Below are positions 1,989 to 21,700 of a stretch of DNA of 34,659 nucleotides, piece after piece (position 1 is the first letter of the stretch; every line of letters begins with the position of its first letter). The position numbers were made by a program, and so were the translations under genes. Below the pieces are notes generated by a model that saw only the letters and a list, made by a program, of their open reading frames with translations, was not told where the DNA came from and did no database searches. Source of the DNA: Alteromonadaceae bacterium (GTDB lineage: Bacteria > Pseudomonadota > Gammaproteobacteria > Pseudomonadales > Cellvibrionaceae). Location: contig NVXL01000035.1 in NCBI GenBank assembly GCA_002746115.1, positions 1 through 34,659 of the forward strand, written 5' to 3'.

Positions 1989-4550
1989 TTAAGGTGCTGG
2001 ACGAGTAACACCCGTACCGGCAGTTCCGCCAATTGGAACAACTTTATCAAGTCCAACAAACTGACCGCCTTCTTGCCATAACGCAGGCTTGAGAAGTGCG
2101 TATTTCTCTTCATCCCAAGTTACCCAGTCGTTTAGAACCAAGCCGCCAGTGTCGCCAGAGTTAGGGTTAATTACCCAGAAGGTATGGTGAAGTTTAAGTG
2201 CCGCTATTTCGTCACGTAAGGCTTCCATCCACTTCTGGTTAATACCACCATCCATGAAACCACCCCACTCACCGATAAGCAGTGGTGAAATACCTTCATT
2301 GTGGATGTATAACCAGTTTGGCTCCCAAACATCAGCACGTAACGTGTCACGATCAAAGAAAGACTTGAACCAGCCCTGCATGTATACGGCCGGGCCGTAA
2401 TCATGTGGCGAATACATGATTTGATCCTGTAAGCCAGCGGGTGCTAGCACTTCGTACTCAGCAACACCTTTCAAGTTTCCGCCCCACCAGTTAAAACTAT
2501 AACAAGGCTCTGGTTGGTTGGGTACTTTTGATGGGTTAACCCACTTACCGTGCTTAGCTTGAACTTCAGTACCTTCAATAAGAATAAGCGCGTTCGGGTT
2601 AGCGTTAAGTACAGCAGCAGCGCCTAGCTCAGCAGCATATTTCCAGTTGTTGATATCGGTAGAGTCATCCCACTTAGCGAAACCATTATCGGTCGCTTCA
2701 GGTAAACGATTACAGTAATCGAAGTCAGACTCGCCGGCTTGCTGTTGTGATGCAGCGGTACCGGTAGGTACGCCATGCGGCTCATTTTCTAAGTCATAAG
2801 CAATAATCGTATCATCGCCAGCATAACGAGTGGCTAACCAACCAATGGTAGAAACCCAATCGTCAGTAGTAACGGTACCTTTGTACCATAGTGGCGCAAT
2901 GTGACCGGAGTTGTCAGCTTCAGCACCGTGAATATCCATAATAACTTTTACACCGCAAGACTTAGCTTGCAGTAAGAAGTGATCGAAGATTTCTAGGCTG
3001 TTTTTACCTTCCAAGTTAGGGTTAGCTGACAAGTTAACACTTACAGTGTCGAATTGACCCGCTTGCCATTCTAGTAGCAACTGCGTTGAAATTGGTACGC
3101 GAATTACGTTAATACCACGTTGAGCTGTCGCACTAACGAGCTCTTCCATATTCGCACTCCAAAGACCGTGGAAGACACGCTCAGTAGCGTTCATACCAAA
3201 CCAGTTCGCACCAGCAAGCCATACAGAGTTACCGTCGGAATCAACAACTTGGTTACCGTTAGTGGTTAACCAGTCATCGGTAGAAGATACCGTTGTTGGA
3301 TCAATACCACATGCGTAAGCCGCACCTGGACCGCCACCACCACCGCCAGTTTCACTTGAACAGAAGCCACCGAACGCAGTTTGAGGCGTTGGCAGTGCAC
3401 CAGCAGACTTAGTAATGATAAAGCCTACGGTTGAACTGCCACTTGGGGCGATAGTGCCATTCCAAGTGGACTCTTCGTTAGTTACCGTCACCATATCACC
3501 AGCAGTTGAGAAGGTTCCGTTCCAGCCAGAGCCGAAGGATTCACCAGCACCAAGCGCCCAAGAAAGGCTGTAGCCTTTAACAGAGCTCGCAGCGTTATTG
3601 GTAATGTTAAGCTCAACTTGGAACTGAGTATCACCAACGTTGACGATGTTGTAATCAACACCACATTCGATATCACCTACAGGACCGGAGGCTGCAACCG
3701 TAACGTTTTGAGTAATTACGTCATTAAGAACGCCATCGCTCACGGTTAAAGTTACGGGGTAAGTACCGTCTGCTGCGTACGCATGACTTGTCTGGACGCC
3801 AACACCTGATGAAAGGTCACCAAAGTCCCACGCGTAAGTTAGTACGTCGCCATCAACATCCGTTGAGCTTGCAGCATTCAATGCCGCTGAGAGTTCATTG
3901 GTGGTTGAAGTGAAAGATGCAGTAGGTGCAACATTACCGCCGCTTGAACTTGAAGAACTGCTTGAGCTTGAAGAGCTACTTGAACTTGAAGAGCTGCTTG
4001 AGCTTGAAGAACTGCTTGAGCTTGAAGAACTGCTTGAACTTGAAGAGCTGCTTGAGCTTGAAGAGCTGCTTGAGCTTGAAGAGCTACTTGAACTTGAAGA
4101 ACTGCTTGAACTTGAAGAGCTGCTTGAACTTGAAGAGCTGCTTGAACTTGAAGTAGTAGAACCGCCGCCACATACATCGCCAGTTACAGCGATAGTTATA
4201 GGAGCGCTGGCTACGTCTTTAGCGCCTTGGAAGCCAAATGCAACGCTGCTTCCGGGTTGAATTTGAGAGTTCCAGCCTAGGCTTGATGCACAGTTGCCGA
4301 CCTGATTTGCATTCCACAAGGAGGTAACTGTCGTCCCCGCGGCGGCCCAGCAGACGTCCCAGCCAGATATTGCGACAGCGGTGTCATTTGTAATTGAAAT
4401 TTCAGCTTGAAAGCCTGAGCCCCAGTCGTTTACAACGGTGCCAGTACAAGTCGCGGCATTGGCGCCAGAGCTTACGGCACCAGCGATCGATAAGATCCCG
4501 GCAGCCAGCGTATTTTGGATATAACAAGGAATCTTGTTTTTTCGAGTCAT
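1989..4550 (-). CDS. Secreted multidomain endoglucanase: CBM2, poly-Ser, PKD, CBM2-like, GH5
   Basis: 853-residue secreted cellulase that should cleave beta-1,4-glucan chains. Residues 1-32 are a signal peptide (probable cut ANA/AT). Residues 33-128 are a CBM2 cellulose-binding module, with boundary Cys35 and Cys127 and several exposed-type Trp. Residues about 130-203 are an almost pure serine linker. Residues about 205-289 are a PKD domain (YAWDFGD). Residues about 290-400 look like a second CBM2, followed by a Gly-rich hinge. The rest is GH5, close to subfamily 1 by motifs such as VFHGLWS, FNWWGGNL and NPNSGDTGG. The acid/base is Glu590 in NEPHG, the nucleophile Glu761 in IGEWGG. ATG start; the ribosome-binding site is weak. 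It is the last gene of the minus-strand run and is followed by the terminator at 1904-1933. Exact substrate preference is inferred. Confidence 0.93.
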   Translation of the reverse strand: MTRKNKIPCYIQNTLAAGILSIAGAVSSGANAATCTGTVVNDWGSGFQAEISITNDTAVAISGWDVCWAAAGTTVTSLWNANQVGNCASSLGWNSQIQPGSSVAFGFQGAKDVASAPITIAVTGDVCGGGSTTSSSSSSSSSSSSSSSSSSSSSSSSSSSSSSSSSSSSSSSSSSSSSSSSSSSSSSSSSSSSSSSSSSSSSSGGNVAPTASFTSTTNELSAALNAASSTDVDGDVLTYAWDFGDLSSGVGVQTSHAYAADGTYPVTLTVSDGVLNDVITQNVTVAASGPVGDIECGVDYNIVNVGDTQFQVELNITNNAASSVKGYSLSWALGAGESFGSGWNGTFSTAGDMVTVTNEESTWNGTIAPSGSSTVGFIITKSAGALPTPQTAFGGFCSSETGGGGGGPGAAYACGIDPTTVSSTDDWLTTNGNQVVDSDGNSVWLAGANWFGMNATERVFHGLWSANMEELVSATAQRGINVIRVPISTQLLLEWQAGQFDTVSVNLSANPNLEGKNSLEIFDHFLLQAKSCGVKVIMDIHGAEADNSGHIAPLWYKGTVTTDDWVSTIGWLATRYAGDDTIIAYDLENEPHGVPTGTAASQQQAGESDFDYCNRLPEATDNGFAKWDDSTDINNWKYAAELGAAAVLNANPNALILIEGTEVQAKHGKWVNPSKVPNQPEPCYSFNWWGGNLKGVAEYEVLAPAGLQDQIMYSPHDYGPAVYMQGWFKSFFDRDTLRADVWEPNWLYIHNEGISPLLIGEWGGFMDGGINQKWMEALRDEIAALKLHHTFWVINPNSGDTGGLVLNDWVTWDEEKYALLKPALWQEGGQFVGLDKVVPIGGTAGTGVTRPAP
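3943..4152. repeat. 18-bp tandem array encoding the poly-Ser linker
   Basis: Eleven full 18-bp units plus two thirds of a unit lie inside the cellulase gene. Each unit encodes six serines on the minus strand using mixed codons (AGC, AGT, TCA, TCT). Variation between units is confined to a few positions, consistent with expansion by unit duplication. The array creates an open plus-strand frame of Leu/Glu repeats that is an artefact. Confidence 0.9.
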
Positions 4551-6743: not shown

Positions 6744-9700
6744 TCAAGAACTTTTCTTAATCGCAATAACGTTCGTACTGTCTGTGGGGTTTTCAGAACC
6801 AGCATCCAGGTCAAGCACCCTCGCCTTCTGTTTAGTAAACTGAATCCGAAACGAGCGCGTATCATCATTGTCTTCCGTAAACGCAAAATTCAATACCAAG
6901 CCGACCTCAGAAAAATGAAAGTCAATCTGTGTTAACGAAATTCCCAACAAGTTCTGACTGACATCTACATGGCAATATAGGCGATTATCGCTAGTATAAA
7001 TAATCGTTCCGCAAAAACTCATCACGCCCTGCAAACTTAATTCGATCTCCTCATCTGAGGCAACTTCAGGGCGCTTGTTATGTAATTTGTGTCGTGTTTT
7101 TTGACTTAATACCAAAGAGATCAAACCCGACGAGGTAATCAATAACACGCCACTTTCACCCTCACCCCAGCCGTCATCAACATCATTAACTAAAACCGAG
7201 TCCACGAGATAAGCACCCGCTAAAACATCATCCAAGCGTACCCCCTCAATTACAGAACCGTCAGCGCGACGGAAGGAGTGCTCATTATCCTTTAATCGAC
7301 GCCACTTTAATTGCGAGTAACTCTCCGTCGGTAACTCCTCGTTATTGCTCATATCCACAATCAACGGAGCGGGCGTCAGACATAATAAATTCTCAGAACC
7401 ACTAATAAATCGGCTCAGCTTTTTATCCTCATAATCGCGTAAAGTACTGCTAAATACATGATGATGAATTAACGAGCCGACCTGATCAAATTCACCACAA
7501 TAGGCCAAATACGTAATAAACGACTCTCGGGGGTTATTCGCCTGCCGATTGGGATGCCAAAGATGGGTCGCCATATAGCCCTCCTCCGTATAAATCACCC
7601 GCCCCTGCGCTTGATGGCCAAGCGGGTAAGAGTGCTGGTCATGCGAGCCCATTACCATAGAAACAAGTGAATATACTCCGCCCGACTCACATAGCGACAC
7701 CTCACAAGATTGGGTATTTTCACTGAGCAAAGCTTTAAAACGACGCGGCGGATTCATAAAGAACATATGTGTGCCCTCCACCTCCTCGTAACACGCTATC
7801 TCGTTACAGCATGCTTTCCAGCGTTCCAAGATACTCACGTCAGGTAGAAGTAAATCATTATTCGCCTGCACCACCACCACAGGCGTACTAATGACCTTGT
7901 CACGACCAAGCTCATACGCTTTATATAAAGCAACATCGTTGGCAAGACCCGCGTCGTCAATCGTTAAAATCCCGCTTTCTCCTGGGGGTAAAAAATGATG
8001 CTTCGCTAACAAGTCACGCGCCATATCCATAGTTGTACTTAAATCGATATCATATATCGGCGCCGAGTATTTACTTAAGGAAAATACCGAGGGCGCAGCG
8101 CATGAAGAGAAGATTGCCCGCTGCGCTTGTAACTGGCAGTACTTCTCCAAATAAGCTAATACCTCAAACCCAACAATCGCTCCCATGGAATGCCCCCACA
8201 CCACCACAGGTAAATTAAACAACGAGCGCACACGCTCCGCTAACTGCTGAGTCAAAATCTGCCACGAGCTGTAATTGGTTGACCCAACCCCCCAAACCTC
8301 GACATCATTCGGCAGCTTTTTCACCCACTGATAAGCATGCTGCCCAAAACCAAGGCAATAAAAGATTAACAAGCGCTGCTTAGGACGAGTCGACGGCTTT
8401 ATGCAGCTCACGTCACGACGATCATGGCTTTCAGCACTTAATGCTGATGTAAATGGATTAATTGCACTTGGATCTAGCTTGAGCAAACTCCCCCCGGAAG
8501 CGCTTGGCGCCGAAATAGGTGCTTGCGCCACCCCGCTTGTTGAAGATGATGAAGACGATACCGAATCAGATACAGACGAATCTTCAAGCGCATCTGCATT
8601 GCCAGCCCCCCCAACAATAGGCAAAAAATCCTTACTAAGCCCGACGTCATCCGGCTGACAATGCGGACTTATTTCTCGGCTGAGCCCTGCTATGGTGATA
8701 GACATCGGGTCGACATTGAGTGACTCAATTCCAGGGAAGGCTTTAAGCAGAATATTAATTAATTCAATCGTATTAATAGAGTCAAGACCATAGGCTGCAA
8801 TCACCTCATAATCATCAATAAGATGCTCATAAGGTAAATGCAAGACATGTGAAATAGCGGTTTTGATTGTCTCTGTAACCGGGTCATCTTTAAAATCTCG
8901 AGCCTTAGCTGAAGTATCTTGTTTGTCATCTTCCCCGGGAATTACTGCAGGCGCAGTAATTAACGCCGGTAACGATGAAGTTGCGGATGTGCTGGCGTTT
9001 GACTGCCCAGCAGAAGGCGAAGGATGCTCGGTTTTACTAAACGGATATAGAGGTAAGCCATGTAAGCGCGTGGGCGGAATCTGCCCGGATGAGGCTTGCG
9101 CATTCACGTAAAGTTCAGCCCAGTTAATACTTAGGCCATCCACCCAGAACTCCGCCAATTTGGAGAATTTTTTATTTTTCAATAACGACGATAAAAAATC
9201 CTGCCCCTCATTAGTATCGCCAATATTGGTACCGGATCGCCCGCGCCCTTGCGACACAAAACTACGGCCAGACTTATTCGCAGGCATGCCATTATCCGCT
9301 TCCTCGATTGCATGCTGAATATTTTCTAACAAATCCGCTTGTTGGTTAAAAATAATGGCAATACGTGCCGCCATTATTTCGCGACCACACTGCAAGGTGT
9401 AACACACAGCATCAAGGTGATCGATTATATTGGTACTTAAGTAAGCTTTCCAAGTTTGTAGATACGCCAATAGGCGTTCATTGGTTTGAGCCGACAATAT
9501 AAATAAATACGACTCATCTCCCGCGACTTGACCGAATTTTATTTCGCGATCCACCTCAAACTCTCGCAATACGACATGGGCATTCACACCGCCAAAACCG
9601 TAACTATTTAGACTCCAGTAACGCGGTATTTTTTCACCGTATTCGTTGATGTTTTCTGGCCAAGTGCCATGCTGCGAAGAAATCTCAAACTTCTCTTGAT

Positions 9701-12700
9701 CGAGTTTAATATCCTTATGCAGCTGTTGAAAGTTATTGATACCCGGCAACACACCATTACGCAAAGCCATAATACTTTTGATTAACGCAGCAATGCCCGA
9801 TGCAAATTCAGGATGCCCAATATCAGCTTTTAAAGTGCTAATACGAATTTTGTTTTCCTGATAACTTGCTAGCCCACCCTCACCTATATCCGCTTCCGAC
9901 TGCAAGCCACGCTGAATCCCCGCAAGCTCTGCTGCATCCCCCATGGAAGAGCCAATACCATGCGCCTCAACATATTGACAATAGCGTGGGTCAACACCAC
10001 TTTTTGACCAAGCGCGTCGGCTCGCTTCGCGGATACCGCCGGGGTTTGGTGTGATTAAAGATAAGGTTTTTCCCGCATGATAAACACCGGATCCGCAGAT
10101 AACCGCATAAATATCGTCCCCATTGGCTTGCGCATCCACCAAAGGTTTAATCACCACAGCGCCTGCACCCTCGGCGCGAATATAACCATCACTTTGATGA
10201 TCAAAACTGCGCGTACTACCAGTACCGCTAAGAAAGCCCATTTTATGAAAGCCTAAGCTGTATCCAATATCGTCGAGCACATTCACCGCTGCCACTACTG
10301 CTTGCTTTGCCTCGCCCTCGGCAAGGCTCGCTTTCGCGCGATGCAAGGCCACCAAGAAACTAGAGCAAGCCGTATCCTCGCCCTCACTTGGACCGCGTAA
10401 ATTAAATAAATACGACAAGCGGTTAACCAGTATCGACGCCGCTTGACCAGTAATTCCGTATTCATCCACCTCGACAACAGCCGCATTAATATTTTGACTA
10501 CCCGCTACGTACATGGCGGTTTCTTGTTTGCTAAATTCGGACAGCGGTGTCCCACTATCCTCAATTGCCTTCCAGACCTCTTCAATTAATAAGCGTTGCG
10601 CATATGACATAGCTGCCACTTCACGTGGCGATATTTTGAAAAAAGCGTGATCAAAGCAGGCGATATTTTCTAACAAACCCACAGTAAATACACCGTCATC
10701 CCTATTTAGATTGTCCGAGTCAAGCGCAGCCTCGCCCCAGCGATGAACTAAAGCATTATCCTTTATATCCTCATCCGGCTGGGGTCGATAATTCCGTACC
10801 GAACTCTCGCTGTTAGCTATATTTTCCCAAAACTGATTTACATCCTCAGCACCAGGGAAGCGACCACTAATGCCGACAATGGCATAACCCTGTGTCAATC
10901 GGCTTTCTTTATTATCATCAGCGCGCGCCGACGTCGCTTTCGTTTTATTGGATGAGGTAATCGGTGTTACGACTGAATCCGAAGTTGCACCCCCTCTTGA
11001 GCTACTAGCCGATACAGGTACAAACGGAATCCCAGCCTGAACCTCAGCGGCTTCGCTTATTACAGTATTCGCCAAGGAATTAGAGGGCGCATTACGCGCA
11101 GCAAAATTTGGAAATAACTCACGCTGCAACACATTACGATACTCATCGACTAAAAAATCACAAAAGTCATCGATAGTTGCATGCTCAAAAAATACCGTTG
11201 GCATTAAATCAATATCAAAATCAGAATTTAGGCGGTTACATAATTGAGTCAAACCTATCGAGTCTAAACCATATTCACTAAGGTCAGTATCGCCATCTAA
11301 ATCGGATATTGGTATTTTAAGCATTTCCGACAAATCTGTTTTAATACGATCAACCGTCGCTATCAATAAGGTTTTATCGTCGACTTGCTCTGGAGTGCCC
11401 TCTACCGGAGCCCTTTCACTCAGAACCGTACTCGCGACCACACCGGCCTCTATAAGCCTGTTGCCCGCAGGCACCTGTTCAGGCGTTTTAAGCGCCGTGC
11501 CCCCAAATATCTTTTGCCGTATTTTCGTAGTATTACCATACATTACCGCAAGCTGAGGTGTTTTATGAGAAAGTTCAAGGCTTAAACAAGACGTTAATAT
11601 TTGTAGCGCTTGTGCGCTTGGCAAAGCCTGAAAACCATAATGTTGATATTGCCACTGCTGGTTTTGAGTATCAATTTTCATCCCCCCGTCTTGCCATAGC
11701 GGCCAATTAATTGACATCGCAAGGCCTTTGCGCAAACCGGATCCTTGTAATTGATTTCGGTAATGACAAAACTGATCCAAATACGCATTCGCAGTAGCAT
11801 AATCACATTGACCGGCATTACCAAATACCGCTGACAAAGAAGAGAACAATACCACCGCTCGCAGTGGCTGCTCGACGCTCAATCGGTCAAGATGATAAAC
11901 ACCAGAAATTTTATTACTCAATACCTGCTCAAAATCGGCTTCTGATTTATTCAACAAACGCTCGTCATTATGAATGCCGGCACAGTGAAAAATGCCATTC
12001 AGTTCACCAAAGTCATTATTTATTGTATTTAACAAGTGCTGACACTGATCCGCTTGACTACAATCCGCCTGATAATAACGCAACTGACTTAGATCAGGAG
12101 TTAGCTCATTATGTAAGTTTAAACGCTGCCAAAGTGCTTGCGCAGTTTGTAACTCACCACCCGCTGAGCGGCCACAGAGCACGATACGAATTTCCGGAAC
12201 CTTACTTAACAAGTACTTAGCGATTAAAGAGCCGACTCCGCCTAAACCACCGGTAATTAACACAACATCCTGAGCTTGCCATAAAATATCCCCGGTATTA
12301 TATTGGCGCGGTAAAATCAGCTCTCGCCAGCGTAAACTCTGTCCAGATAAAGTGTTATTTACAAAACTAAAACGAATACATTCCGATTTTTGTTGCCGCC
12401 CAGCCTGTTCCAAACATTCGCTTAAGCGTCGTCCGCACTCACCCTCAAGACCCCCTAATCCAGAAGGCTCCTCACCTTGCAATAGCAGAACTTGACCAAC
12501 AAAATTATTGTGCTCAATAGATGCACTTTTCAACATCGCTTGTAGTGCAGGGTAAAACTCACTAAAGCCCTTATCATTGGTACTTAATACTAATTGCAGA
12601 AGTATTTTTTGCTTGCGCTTTTCGGGATCAGATAATAAATATTTTAACTGCCTAAACAAAGCCAAACTAAGCGCATGAAAACCTGCACAATTATCAACTT

Positions 12701-15700: not shown

Positions 15701-18700
15701 GCGAGAAAAATCGCGGATCAAAATCGGCAGCGCCCTCTAACATCCCCATCCACTTGCTATAACTGGTATCGGTTTGTTGACGATCATAATCAAAATACTG
15801 ATCAGGGTTCCAGCGAGTATGCGGGATCTCGCTAATACAATCACGCCCCTCGGCGATATTCTGCCAAAACTTCTCTAAGTTTTCGGATTTTGGAAATTGA
15901 CCATCCATGCCAATAATTGCAATCGGGCTCGGCGGCTCGGCTCGATTTGTTTGTGGCCGAATATGCTGCCCATGGCTCTCGCTGCCTGTCATTTTTTCAA
16001 CCGTCACAGGCGCATCCGCAGGGTAGGGAATGCCTAGCGTAATTAACTGCTGATAAACATGCTCACTCAGTGCTTTAACACTCGAATATTGAAAAATTCG
16101 CGCCGTAGAAATGGTCAATTTAAATTCATTATTAATGCTCTCGATTAAACCCACAGCCGCAGCAGAATCCACCCCAAGATCACTAAAAGCTAACTCTTCA
16201 GAGATAGTATTACTTGGCGTATCAAGTGCCAAAGCCAACATGTCCCGTAAACGTTGCTTAACCACAAGAGCGTCTGTCGCCATGGGCTGAGCTAGGGGCT
16301 GAGACTGAACGGATGCATTGCCGCCAGTACTGATATTTTCTACCCAGTGGCGCTGCCGTTCAAAAGGATATAAAGGTAGGGAAATACGGCGGCTATGAGT
16401 CCCCTCGAACAATTGAGCATAATCTAATACATCCCCTTGCGACCACCAAGAAGCTATCTCACTTAGCAATTGTCGGTAACGCGAAGGGTCGTTACGGTGC
16501 AGTACAATACTCTCGATGGTTTTATTCGCGGTATCTCGGCGCTGATACTGTTCGCGATTTAAACCACCATCAAGCACGCAATGTATTAAGTTATCACGCA
16601 CAGGCTCAGCTATCTCGCGCCCGCCCAACCAAGCGTGCAATGTTTCTTGTAATTCCGTCAAACCACTCACCACGCAAACTAAACGGTGGCTGCAATGCTT
16701 ACGCCCCATTAACAAACTAAAACTTAAATCAGCCAATGCAGGTGAATGATGATTGAGCCATTCATGCATCTGCTTAACATGCTGCTGCAATGACCACTCA
16801 GTGCCTGCGCTAAGTACCACTAAATACGCAGAGCTTACAAAACGACTCTGGTACTTACAGTGTACTTCAGAACCGCGTAATACTAAGTGTGCATTGGTAC
16901 CATTAAAACCAAAGCAATTCACCGCCGCCAAACGGGCATGATTGGTTTTTGGCCAGGGCTGCAACTCAGTATTGATATAAAATGGACTAGCGGCAAAATC
17001 AATCATAGAATTTTGCTGATTAAAATGCAGCGAAGGCGGTATTTTTTCGTGTTTTAAAGCCATTAACACCTTCACAACCCCCGCCACTCCAGCGGCACCA
17101 ATGGTGTGACCGATGTTACTTTTAACGCTGCCTAAGGCACAAAACTGTTTTTTATCTGTATAAGTCCCAAAGGCTTGGCTCAGCGCCTCATGCTCCATTG
17201 GATCACCCAAGCGTGTGCCCGTGCCGTGTGCCTCAATTAAACTAATATCCGCAGGGTCTATACCGAAACGTTGATAGACACTTTCATGTAAGCTTTGCTG
17301 AGCTTGGGCGCTGGGGGCGGTAATACCATTTGATGCACCGTCTTGATTCACGCCACTACCACAAACACTGGCATAAATTTGATCACCGTCTGCTTCAGCA
17401 TCTTGTAAGCGTTTTAATATTAATACGCCAGCCCCCTCACCCGGAACGAACCCGTCTGCTTCGGCATCAAAAGAACGGCAGCGACCACTAGCAGACAGCA
17501 TTGATGCGCCATTAGCGGCGTTAAAAAATTCCGCTGTACTTTGAACAAAAATCCCTCCCGCCAAAGCCATATCACACTCTTCAGAGCGTAAACTCTGGCA
17601 GGCCAAGTGAATTGCCACTAAGGAGCTTGCACATGCGGCATCTACTGCAATGGCCGGGCCTTTAAGGTTAAGGTAATACGCAATACGTGCGGGGATTAAC
17701 GAGGCCGCATTGCCCCAAAAAGATTGGGCAGGCGCATTTTCACCGATTAAACGCGCATAGTCACAATTGGTAACCCCGACATAGACACCGACGCTTTTAC
17801 CCTTGAGCCAGTCCCCAGCGTAGGCAGCGTCCTCTAGTGCGTGCCAACATTGCTGTAAATAAATACGCTGTTGCACGTCCATATATTGTGCTTCAGCAGG
17901 TAAAATATTAAAAAATCCCGCATCAAAGCAATCGATATCGCTAAGAAAGCTACCATGTTCACAGCTTTTTGCTTTATTTTGTGCAGGATCTGTACCCGGT
18001 GTCGGGTCGGTGTTCTCCGAGCTAGAACCCGCCAACGGCCAACGACTAACGCTCTCAACTAAATCATCGCCATCCAATAAGTGCTGCCAAAAGGTATCCA
18101 CATCCGGTGACTTAGCAAAACATGCGCTCAAGCCTACAATCGCAATCGGCTCCTTAAAATGATTGCGTGCCTGCAAGCTCTCCCCTTTAGATGGCTCTCC
18201 TCCAGACAAGCGCTCTATTGCTTGGCCTTGATTAAGATTATCAGAATCGTTACCAAACGAGGCCACCGCTTTTTGCACATGCTCCGGAACCTGTACAACG
18301 ACTTTACCAATATTACTGCGGTTTTCCAGCATACGGTAGGCTTGCTGTATATCCTCTAGCGGCAGCGTTTGAGCTACGGTGGCTTGAATTATGCCTTTAT
18401 CGACGAGGGCTAAAACCTCTTTAAAATATGTACGTAGACGCTTAGGTTGACGCAGAGCCAGTTTACGAAGGTCGCTTGCGAAAAAACTTTGGTTATCGGA
18501 TAACACTGATAAATCCACTTGATTGGCACTTTTTAACGCCGTCATCGCCAATTCAATATAACGCCCACCAGGCGCCAAACAGCGTAAGCCTTTAGCGATC
18601 GCATCACCAGAGAGGGTATTAATAACAACGTCTACACCCTGCCCTTGAGTTAAATCCATAACGGCTTGCTCAAAGTCTTGCTCTAAATACGCGATGCCAT

Positions 18701-21700
18701 GGTCAACGCCGAGCGCTTCAAGGTAGGCGAGTTTTTCTGCTGAACCGGCAGTGGCATAAATTTCTGCTCCATAATGCTTGGCTAGCTGCACGGCGATTAA
18801 ACCGATGCCACCTGCTGCAGTTTGAATTAAAATTCGCTCCCCGGGACATAGATCGGCTTTGCGAAAAGCATCAATCATAGTGACTCCCGCAGCGGGCAAA
18901 GCGCAGGCTTGCTCGAAATCGAGTTTTTCAGGCTTCGCTAATACATGCTGCTGATCACAGGTAATTACGCTAGCTTGGCCGCCTAGGGTTTCGGTCAAGG
19001 TAAGCGCAATCACTGCGTCGCCGAGTGCAAAGTCGCTCACGCCTTCACCTATTTCCAATACCGTACCTGCGGCTTCAAAACCCGGAACAAACGGGTAAGG
19101 CGGCATACTTGGGTACAAGCCTTTAACGCAGAGTAAATCCCCAAAGTTTAATGCAAACGCTTTCACCCCTATACGTATTTGACCGGCTCTTAGCGGCTCT
19201 AGCTTGAAGGTACTTAATTGTAACTGCTCTATTTGACCCGGCCCGTTTAGGCGTAAACACTGATGAGGTGAATTAGGCTCTGCTTTTGAGGGAATATTAT
19301 GATCGGCATTGGCCGTGCTTTGAACACTTGTTTCTAGGTTCTGTTCCGCTGTTCTCTTCTCCTCGCTGTCTTCAGTATTTATTTTCAATTCATGCTGTGA
19401 TTCGTGCTCGGATTCATACTGGGGTTCATGTTCGGGCTCTCCCAGCGGTAAATTTACCTCTTTGCATAAGGTCTGCGATTTTTCCTCATCAGCATATTTG
19501 TGAAAATATTTTTTTAAAGTCTCTTCATGTTCACCCAATAAATATTCACTTAAACTTTCAACATTATTGTAGTCGAACAAAACGGTGCTGCTCAAAACCA
19601 AGCCAAGCAGTTGATTAATTTCATTCACAAGCTTAACAATTAAAATTGAATCAATACCATAATCAACAAATGCTGTAGTCTCATTAATCGACGCAATATC
19701 TAAGCCGGTGGCATTCGCGACGCTTTGTTTAAGTGTTTGATGTAATAATTCTCGTAACTCATGAGGATCGACGCACTCATATTCAGACTCATATTCAGAC
19801 TCAGATTCAGACTCAGAGCTTGGATCTGATATTATCTCATCAGAAATTTCAAGCCCTTCGGCCTCTATCTCTGTTGTATGCTTAGGCTCGGAGTTAGACA
19901 CTTGCTCAAGCTCACGCCCTAGCTCAGAGATGGAACTCGGAACATGCTGAGGCGCTTGATGTCCACTATTATCAGAAACCTCATGCCGACTGGACGGTAT
20001 TGGCGTTTGCGTAAGCCCCGGCACGCTTGCGTTTGCGGTGTTAATAAAGCCATCACTTAGCGCGCTAATTATTTGACATCCATGATGATGCAAAGCCTCA
20101 CCAGGAAAGGCTAAATCATAAAACCCCTCCTGCTCCAACAAACAACGCCAGCTCAACATGCTCAATGCTGGGCTGCTTTCTAAGCGTAACCACGGATCTT
20201 GCGCCAACCACCAACCATCGAGCAAGCCAAAGGTTAAATGACTAAACAAACTCTCTCGGCTAAGCTCATTTAATAACAGCATGGCACCGGGCCGCATTTG
20301 CGTTTTCACATTACGCAAGGTTTGGCGCATATTACGAGTAGCGTGCAATACGTTAGCCGCAATCACCACATCAAAATCGCCCTGAGGCGAATTGTCCGCC
20401 CCCGGTCTTATCTGTTCGACATCAAATAATTGTGTTTTTAAATAAGGCGCTTTTTCTCTAAAGTGTTTTTGTGCATGATTTAGAAAAGCCGTGGAAACAT
20501 CGGTATAGCAATATTCATCAATATGCTCAGCAAAAGGCGTCAAAGCTTGCAGCACCGACGCACTCGTGCCACCCGTACCAGCGCCTATTTCTAAAATCCG
20601 AAGCTTAGTACCGGGTCTAACGCTCAGGACGCACTGTAAATAATCCACTAAATTTGCGCACAAACGCGTATTAAACCAATCCGCAGCAGGGTTGTTTTTG
20701 TAAATATTCTCCACTAAAGTATTTTCACCCTGCGGGAAGATCACACTCGGTGCACTGCAATTACCAAGCACAATATCACTCAACGCGCTCAGGCATGCAT
20801 CCGCCAAGGCAACATGTGCCGCCAATGCCGGATACCGCTCTGCAAAACACTGTAGCTGCTCGCGCTGAGCTTGCGCGTCTGGGGTCACGCTCGCCATTTT
20901 CGGTATTACCGTTTGAGGGCTTTCAGCATGCTCGGTAAGGTCTTCTGGTGAGTCGGTATCCGGCAAATAACCCCGAGTTTGTAAATACCGCAAACTCGCT
21001 TGAAACCATAATAAACTGCGCTCACTAATATTACCGGCGTTCTGCATGAGTGGTAATAATTCCGCTAACAACCAGCCCTCAAGTAAACGCTCAAATTCAG
21101 GGTGGCATAAACCACTATGAGGCTCTTGTAATTCTGCAGGTATTTGTAAAACACTATGCGGCATTAACGAACGCGATATACGTCGCCACTGGCGCATTAA
21201 GGCATGGTCGTCCGCGACGCGATACAAGCAAATATCCCCGGGCACAAACGCGGGAAAGCGTAAACGGCAATCACTTTCATGTAAATACGGATCAGTAGAT
21301 TTTAAAATTGCAAACTGCGTTAACGGTGTTGCTAATAACGTTTCTAATTGCGCAAAACTCTCATCCGGCGTTAACGAGGCCAAACCCATTTGCGCCATCC
21401 GCTGTCGATAATGCGGCTGCGCCACCACACCAATGCCGCCCCAATATCCCCAGTTAACGGTTTTAACCGGGCAAGACAAGCGCTCAGTAAGCTGTAATGC
21501 GTAACTATCAATAAAAGTACACCCGGCGGCATAATTACTTTGCCCTGCGGACTGTAAACTTGACTGAATAGAAGAAAAGAATAAAACAAAATCGAGGTTT
21601 TGCTCCGAGAATACTTCAGCCAAACAAGTAGCGACTTTTACTTTTGCATCAAGGCTTTGGTGAAACTGAGTCTCGTCCATTTGGGCGATACTCGCGTCTT

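Follow-up and report, generated by a model that had tools for sequence, protein, structure and literature searches.

A type II-kind thioesterase with a tandem lipocalin tail at the end of a trans-AT polyketide synthase

The synthase and its C-terminal block

We analysed a 34,659-nucleotide stretch of DNA from an Alteromonadaceae bacterium (GenBank assembly GCA_002746115.1, contig NVXL01000035.1, positions 1 to 34,659; hereafter, the window). It carries a polyketide synthase (PKS) gene whose product ends in a thioesterase (TE) followed by two lipocalin-like domains, Lip1 and Lip2, a block that we call TE-Lip-Lip (Table 1). According to Pfam and domain profiles, the domain order of the PKS is KS-DH-KR-ACP / KS-KR-MT-ACP-ER / KS-ACP / KS-DH-KR-ACP / KS-ACP-TE-Lip-Lip (KS, ketosynthase; DH, dehydratase; KR, ketoreductase; ACP, acyl carrier protein; MT, methyltransferase; ER, enoyl reductase). 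The same methods reported no acyltransferase (AT) domain within the PKS, and the gene upstream encodes an AT fused to a PfaD-type ER, which is likely the trans-acting AT for this synthase; we therefore classify the line as trans-AT. We rejected an artefact of frame or assembly, since the frame stays open for 7652 codons and the block turns up again on another contig as well as in a genome assembled as one contig. Two peculiarities of the synthase may be added. The terminal KS has atypical active-site surroundings (EDTACSSFL, EAHGIGSSMGD, and KADIGHPE), with the Cys and both His present, and the ER-like domain of module 2, a zinc-type dehydrogenase, sits after the ACP and ahead of the next KS (window ~18290-19190, residues ~3506-3803).

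Table 1. Coordinates of features in the window and, in the last row, on the same contig beyond it
Feature	Position	Strand	Basis
Trans-AT polyketide synthase, 7652 aa	6744..29702	minus	Open frame, Pfam, domain profiles
AT fused to PfaD-type ER, 794 aa	29814..32198	minus	TIGR02814, 651.7 bits; Acyl_transf_1, 81.7 bits
Terminal KS (module 5), PKS residues 6274-6690	9633..10883 (bounds approximate)	minus	Pfam, domain profiles
Terminal ACP, serine at residue 6975	8673..8894	minus	PP-binding, 16.9 bits, under the cut-off of 20.8
Thioesterase, type II kind, residues ~7095-7333	7704..8420	minus	PF00975, 32.6 bits (cut-off 26.4)
Lip1, first Lipocalin_5 domain	7296..7679	minus	PF13924, 44.4 bits, E 6.6e-11 (genome search; cut-off 25)
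Lip2, second, degenerate Lipocalin_5 domain	6957..7214	minus	PF13924, 28.6 bits, E 5.0e-6 (genome search; cut-off 25)
CcdA/CcdB toxin-antitoxin pair, window edge	218-780	plus	PF07362, 101.9 bits; PF01845, 114.6 bits
Secreted cellulase-like protein with very long poly-serine linker	1989-4550	minus	By eye
GDT1-type cation antiporter, single-domain, 91 aa	6391-6666	minus	PF01169, 79.6 bits
Three consecutive short open reading frames, FliS-type flagellar chaperone-like tandem paralogues near a sigma-54-type regulator	L006:4297-6471	minus	By eye

The TE is of the type II kind by both fold and sequence. Its catalytic set, assigned from motifs as Ser7172 (GHSMG), Asp7283 (QANND), and His7312 (EGTH), is kept in all five copies of the block described below, and its spacing (111 residues from Ser to Asp and 29 from Asp to His) fits that of the type II TEs RifR and SrfTEII (~105 and ~28). 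When a profile of the TE family was compared with solved structures, type II TEs led the matches (7e3z, E 5.1e-14; SrfTEII, 1.3e-10; BorB, 2.0e-10; RifR, 1.4e-8; TesA, 1e-6), and no type I PKS TE did better than 0.039. The top fold match of the TE model was BorB (Z 23.6, root-mean-square deviation [rmsd] 2.7 over 225 residues), followed by 7e3z, ClbQ, RedJ, and RifR, these five lying at Z 22.7-23.6. For the TE part, the Pfam matches up to E 1 were confined to PF00975 and alpha/beta hydrolase families, with none of the beta-lactamase type.

About 320 residues come after the TE. A Pfam search of this tail with PF13924 matched the family in two stretches (71.4 bits, E 9.7e-20), and each copy clears the gathering cut-off of 25 bits independently. 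The first-pass annotation, made from the DNA without database searches, had placed a TE and two lipocalin-like domains at the end of the PKS, described the second as the weaker, and noted a resemblance of the TE to type II enzymes; all three points agree with the PF00975 and paired PF13924 matches, with the lower score of Lip2, and with the structural comparison. Its bounds of 6800-8395 fell in the right region but were slightly narrow, as the block runs from the start of the TE to the stop codon at ~8420-6744.

Residue conservation separates the two barrels. Thirty stand-alone Lipocalin_5 loci were taken for comparison, and L036 (cut short) and L039 (wrong frame) were left out; in the remaining 28 proteins the family residues are His (22/28), Arg (25/28), and Trp (24/28). 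Lip1 has each of the three in 4/4 complete copies of the block (His7414, Arg7431, and Trp7467 in the window), whereas Lip2, which has lost most of the conserved family residues, has the His in 0/4, the Arg in 0/4, and the Trp in 1/4; in the Lip2 of the window, a His is found one alignment column further on. The single exception to the family's conserved residues in Lip1 is a Gly-to-Ser change in one copy (L044, see below). Lip1 also bears a His and a Trp that go with the TE linkage, His7380 and Trp7382 (motif MATHLW), each present in 4/4 copies and in only 2/28 and 0/28 of the stand-alone proteins, respectively. An earlier count on 19 of the 30 loci (L035 dropped) led to the same conclusions, the full set being somewhat less conserved. 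Lip1 thus carries the residues of the free family, and Lip2 shares only its general pattern; unlike the stand-alone proteins, both occur fused to a TE, and Lip1 has the additional His and Trp. When 15 stand-alone proteins were included in a tree, all Lip1 copies clustered in a single clade (support 97/99), and the Lip2 copies stood apart on long branches flagged by the program. Given this single Lip1 clade, the tandem probably arose only one time, and the pair of barrels seems to be older than the divergence of the TE-Lip-Lip family. The first barrel seems to have stayed functional, and the second seems to have relaxed.

An AlphaFold model of the tail from a two-row alignment shows two groups of beta-strands, at low confidence (mean pLDDT 58.7, pTM 0.62). 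Its best match, and the one that spans both barrels, is yeast YLR301w (3rby; Z 10.8, rmsd 4.8, 203 residues), and the second barrel of the model matches nitrophorin lipocalins (Z up to 8.9). Foldseek returned three matches below E 0.001, all with a template modelling (TM) score under 0.3 and rmsd over 17; nitrophorin 4 (E 0.004, TM 0.41 by target, rmsd 4.6) and nitrobindin appear lower in its list. The barrels expected by the first-pass annotation are thus indicated by strand groups and lipocalin matches, but at low confidence, and the fold search barely probed the first barrel alone, so that a barrel fold for Lip1 is suggested mainly by its sequence family. A profile of 10 stand-alone members found no solved Lipocalin_5 structure, only one unrelated match (E 0.86).

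The annotation had also drawn an analogy with barrel-fold cyclases of polyketide pathways, naming those for spirotetronates and decalins. Fungal Fsa2 and CghA, lipocalin-type Diels-Alderases acting on polyketide chains according to excerpts of PMC9055775, offer such a parallel. Yet phmmer, run with the tail against solved structures, returned just one unrelated match up to E 10 (E 0.67) and no Fsa2/CghA-type protein, so that no close kinship is seen at this level. No lipocalin-type Diels-Alderase is among the fold matches listed for the tail, a result that excludes nothing. The likeness to these stand-alone fungal proteins is a functional parallel only.

Recurrence of the block and its position in line

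Counting the window, we found four complete copies of TE-Lip-Lip and one partial copy; the search patterns were narrow, and further copies may exist. A second copy, on another contig of the same genome (C249), is a separate protein of 590 aa encoded immediately behind a trans-AT PKS; it is 29% identical to the window block over 546 alignment columns. Directly after the C249 gene (L005:6512-7090, minus strand) there is a match to Polyketide_cyc2, of the SRPBCC type (64.6 bits), which we count in favour of the release model set out below. A profile search of 369 genomes of the class revealed a third copy in another genome (G464), again a separate protein, of 598 aa. At the order level (390 genomes), the block was found in the window's own genome only, and at the phylum level (398 genomes, a set overlapping with those of the class and order) in that genome and G464 only. 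Among 149 relatives of G464, the block occurs in G464 alone; in G1250 and G1198, whose frames measure 263 and 262 aa, the match is confined to the TE. A pattern search of a named-species collection (84,980) gave 18 TE-related loci, two of which extend beyond the TE: L044, a gammaproteobacterial metagenome-assembled genome with a complete block fused to a PKS, and L045, from Methyloglobulus morosus, with a separate TE protein whose contig stops a few residues into Lip1. No record among 72,556 plasmids held the whole block.

Lipocalin_5 itself is sparsely distributed. Both domains are detected in 4/4 complete copies of the block, and the family gave zero matches across 14 control genomes. Besides the window's own genome, it occurs in 13 of 145 relatives, always in open frames of 149-274 aa, and, leaving G464 aside as well, in 16 of the 369 genomes of the class. 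The sole long frame among the latter (L028, 559 aa) was rejected as a fusion: by eye, its translation reads as a Lipocalin_5 protein behind an apparent long GC-rich shadow frame. L052 was considered as a tailed TE but counted as TE-only: its listed match to query residues 37-281 runs past the TE, yet a stop interrupts its frame before that match is complete. A pattern scan of viral contigs for stand-alone Lipocalin_5 was uninformative, since the family varies too much to be captured in this way. A chance, one-off fusion of a Lipocalin_5 gene can be dismissed, given five related copies whose barrels seem older than their split.

The separate proteins share a further feature. Those of C249, G464, and L045 open with the short stretch MxxxIxxxLxxVxxGELSExEA; by eye, a similar-looking segment closes the PKSs ahead of them, and we infer that both are docking segments. 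Three copies with a docking-like segment after the last PKS gene, together with two fused copies, suggest that the TE acts in line to release the product. The block is best read as a single inherited unit for chain release; its three domains travel together, either fused to the synthase (the window and L044) or as a separate protein (C249, G464, and, as far as its contig reaches, L045). Its recurrence in separate pathways supports a dedicated terminal unit, in keeping with the first-pass annotation, and the tail is probably a real device for release and shaping, not a remnant.

That annotation had also likened the TE to type II editing enzymes. If so, TE-Lip-Lip would be a fused type II proofreading hydrolase, and a different enzyme would free the product. 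The TE does share fold, sequence, and the order of its triad with BorB, RifR, ClbQ, RedJ, and 7e3z. Yet the separate, freely acting protein that characterizes type II TEs is not what we find: the TE is covalently fused in two copies and has a docking-like N terminus directly after the last PKS gene in the other three, and it bears a tandem barrel tail. Pfam detected no alternative domain for terminal release in the PKS, and the terminal PKS protein (1140 aa) of an Agrobacterium vitis line likewise closes with a tail-less hydrolase (GHSSG), type II-like by eye. Both the position of the TE and the absence of a competing domain make a proofreading role highly improbable.

A tail-less relative bears on the role of the barrels. 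On a plasmid of Eleftheria terrae (NZ_CP106953.1, L065:20001-20747), a TE without a tail ends a trans-AT PKS; it is 39.6% identical over the TE and also follows an unreduced KS-ACP module. Its motif is GHCMG, with a Cys nucleophile in place of Ser. In the TE tree, which took in 10 of the 16 TE-only loci and also left out L069 and L070, the Eleftheria TE nests inside the tailed family, grouping with the window TE (87/90); a single clade of tailed TEs is not rejected (approximately unbiased test, p 0.18), so that either loss of the tail in Eleftheria or its gain in the others would fit. This relative, like the loss of the family His and Arg from Lip2, would suit barrels that bind no ligand and merely hold synthase copies or partner enzymes together. 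The 4/4 conservation of the free-family residues in Lip1, plus two new ones, is hard to reconcile with such a passive part, and we give it only a slim chance.

Terminal modules and a tentative model of release

What reaches the TE can be read from the last module of each line. In the window, neither Pfam nor domain profiles found a KR or a DH in the interval between KS5 and ACP5. The terminal modules of the window, G464, and L045 are KS-ACP, with no reducing domain found; that of C249 has a DH whose active His is replaced by Ala, and that of L044 has a KR without the GGxGxLG motif. With reductive domains absent or damaged in every line, a beta-ketoacyl chain would therefore be handed over, and all six lines (the five with TE-Lip-Lip and Eleftheria) should present such a chain.

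For comparison, trans-AT lines for necroxime, oximidine, and lobatamide have final modules that would set up a salicylate, and ring formation is proposed to fall to a PT-like DH in the last of them (excerpts of PMC7318616). The final modules of the window PKS would likewise set up a salicylate. If the line is co-linear, modules 3-5 would leave keto, enoyl, and keto groups, and a C2-C7 aldol reaction with loss of water would give a 6-substituted salicylate. Unlike the benzolactone lines as these excerpts describe them, however, the window has no detectable PT-like DH in its last module and has barrels instead; because this salicylate logic lacks a terminal DH, a cyclase role for the tail is attractive. 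The last DH of C249 is a doubtful candidate for a PT-like DH, as it has lost the His. Its plasmid matches in Rhizobium and Agrobacterium vitis hit DHs elsewhere in those lines; the DH of their terminal proteins matched it only in part, and divergently. The A. vitis line, whose TE is tail-less, may be related to the lobatamide line, judging from the Allorhizobium clusters mentioned in the excerpts of PMC7318616.

We tentatively favour, with somewhat less than even confidence, an in-line release unit in which Lip1 holds the beta-ketoacyl chain and steers its release, plausibly to ring closure, and Lip2 is mainly a scaffold. In this model, the last module would deliver a beta-ketoacyl chain, the TE serine would accept it from the last ACP, and Lip1 would receive and fold it next to the TE. 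Release would most plausibly occur by attack within the chain, closing a ring, rather than by plain hydrolysis. A bolder version, which we regard as unlikely, would place Lip1 in a novel class of polyketide cyclases that act in line: fused or docked behind a type II-kind TE, this domain of lipocalin fold would catalyse C-C or C-O ring closure of the terminal beta-ketoacyl intermediate before or during release and, in the window, do the work proposed elsewhere for a PT-like DH. His7380, His7414, and Arg7431 would then be catalytic or anion-holding.

Several observations weigh against a chain-steering role for Lip1. The tail model is too weak (pLDDT 58.7) for a pocket to be inspected, and binding or cyclisation by the barrels is hypothetical. 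Eleftheria indicates that release from an unreduced last module can do without a tail. In G464, the two earlier modules are reducing, so the salicylate logic does not hold for all members. The type II assignment leads by only ~2-4 Z units, with nonribosomal peptide synthetase (NRPS) and type I TEs close behind in the fold search (Z 19-21 vs 21-24). The inactivity of the C249 DH and the L044 KR is suggested by their motifs despite good Pfam scores (77.5 bits, and 59.8 bits against a cut-off of 22.6, respectively). Finally, unreduced terminal modules are not peculiar to this family, as 4 of 11 PKS-ending TE frames in relatives also lack reduction.

This yardstick comes from 40 stretches hand-picked among the listed TE matches in long frames (>1000 aa), 27 of which were NRPS-ending and two (L118 and L120) were dropped as unclear. 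Seven of the remaining frames are reducing (L104, L105, L109, L115, L127, L136, and L138, with a KR but no KS found in L127 and L138) and four are non-reducing (L117, L130, L134, and L140). Some are probably orthologues (L104/L105), and the position of the TE was taken as listed. The contrast of 6/6 unreduced lines with 4 of 11 controls is suggestive only: C249, G464, and L045 are related, and catalytic residues were checked in the TE-Lip-Lip set but not in the controls, which biases the comparison.

A precedent for a release hydrolase with a barrel at its side exists in peptide biosynthesis. Penicillin-binding protein (PBP)-type thioesterases such as SurE, PenA, and Ulm16 consist of a Ser hydrolase-type domain and, after it, a lipocalin-like domain flanking the substrate cleft (excerpts of PMC11735501). 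As in these enzymes, which act on nonribosomal peptides, the window unit is a release hydrolase with a C-terminal lipocalin-like domain. In contrast, it has the GHSMG/NND/GTH set of a PF00975 Ser/Asp/His hydrolase rather than their Ser/His/Asn/Lys tetrad, it belongs to a polyketide line, and it has two barrels; the likeness is a parallel, not a family tie. By this analogy, the lipocalin pair could be a non-catalytic wall or lid on the TE cleft that selects chains and excludes water. The tail does adjoin the TE directly; however, the hydrolase is of another family and catalytic set and is joined to two barrels, and a pure lid would have no obvious need for the stand-alone family residues conserved in Lip1. 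We consider such a lid rather unlikely, though a real contender.

The barrels might instead catch the freed hydrophobic product for export or self-protection, like classical lipocalins, for which transport of hydrophobic ligands is typical (excerpts of PMC9055775). A covalent link to the TE would provide at most one binding unit per synthase, which is poor for sequestration, and no drug-exporter-type match was seen among the window genes scanned with Pfam, a scan that did not cover every gene. Product capture is thus quite unlikely.

Compared with what is described, a type II-kind release TE with its own tandem lipocalin tail appears to be new: the unit is real, rare in the genomes searched, and conserved, with a putative function in shaping release. 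In the literature searched, subscription papers and preprints aside, we came across no account of a PKS with a TE-lipocalin fusion. From sequence it is difficult to foresee how a trans-AT line lets go of an unreduced beta-keto chain while avoiding stray decarboxylation or cyclisation, and a recurring TE-lipocalin unit provides a handle for mining, for excision, and for assays with and without the barrels. A barrel that steered or made the ring would mean an unusual release domain with its own shaping chamber, parallel to the PBP-type peptide cyclases but built on another hydrolase family.

Other features of the window and genome

The remaining features of the window and contig are listed in Table 1. 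Rfam and tRNA scans of the window found none. In the gene for the secreted cellulase-like protein (1989-4550), shadow frames over the poly-serine linker create long spurious open reading frames. The GDT1-type antiporter is unusually short, the usual form having two domains and twice its size. In the genome as a whole, the matches listed include at least 14 to the PF00975 thioesterase family with E no higher than 1e-8, so this genome is probably rich in assembly-line clusters.
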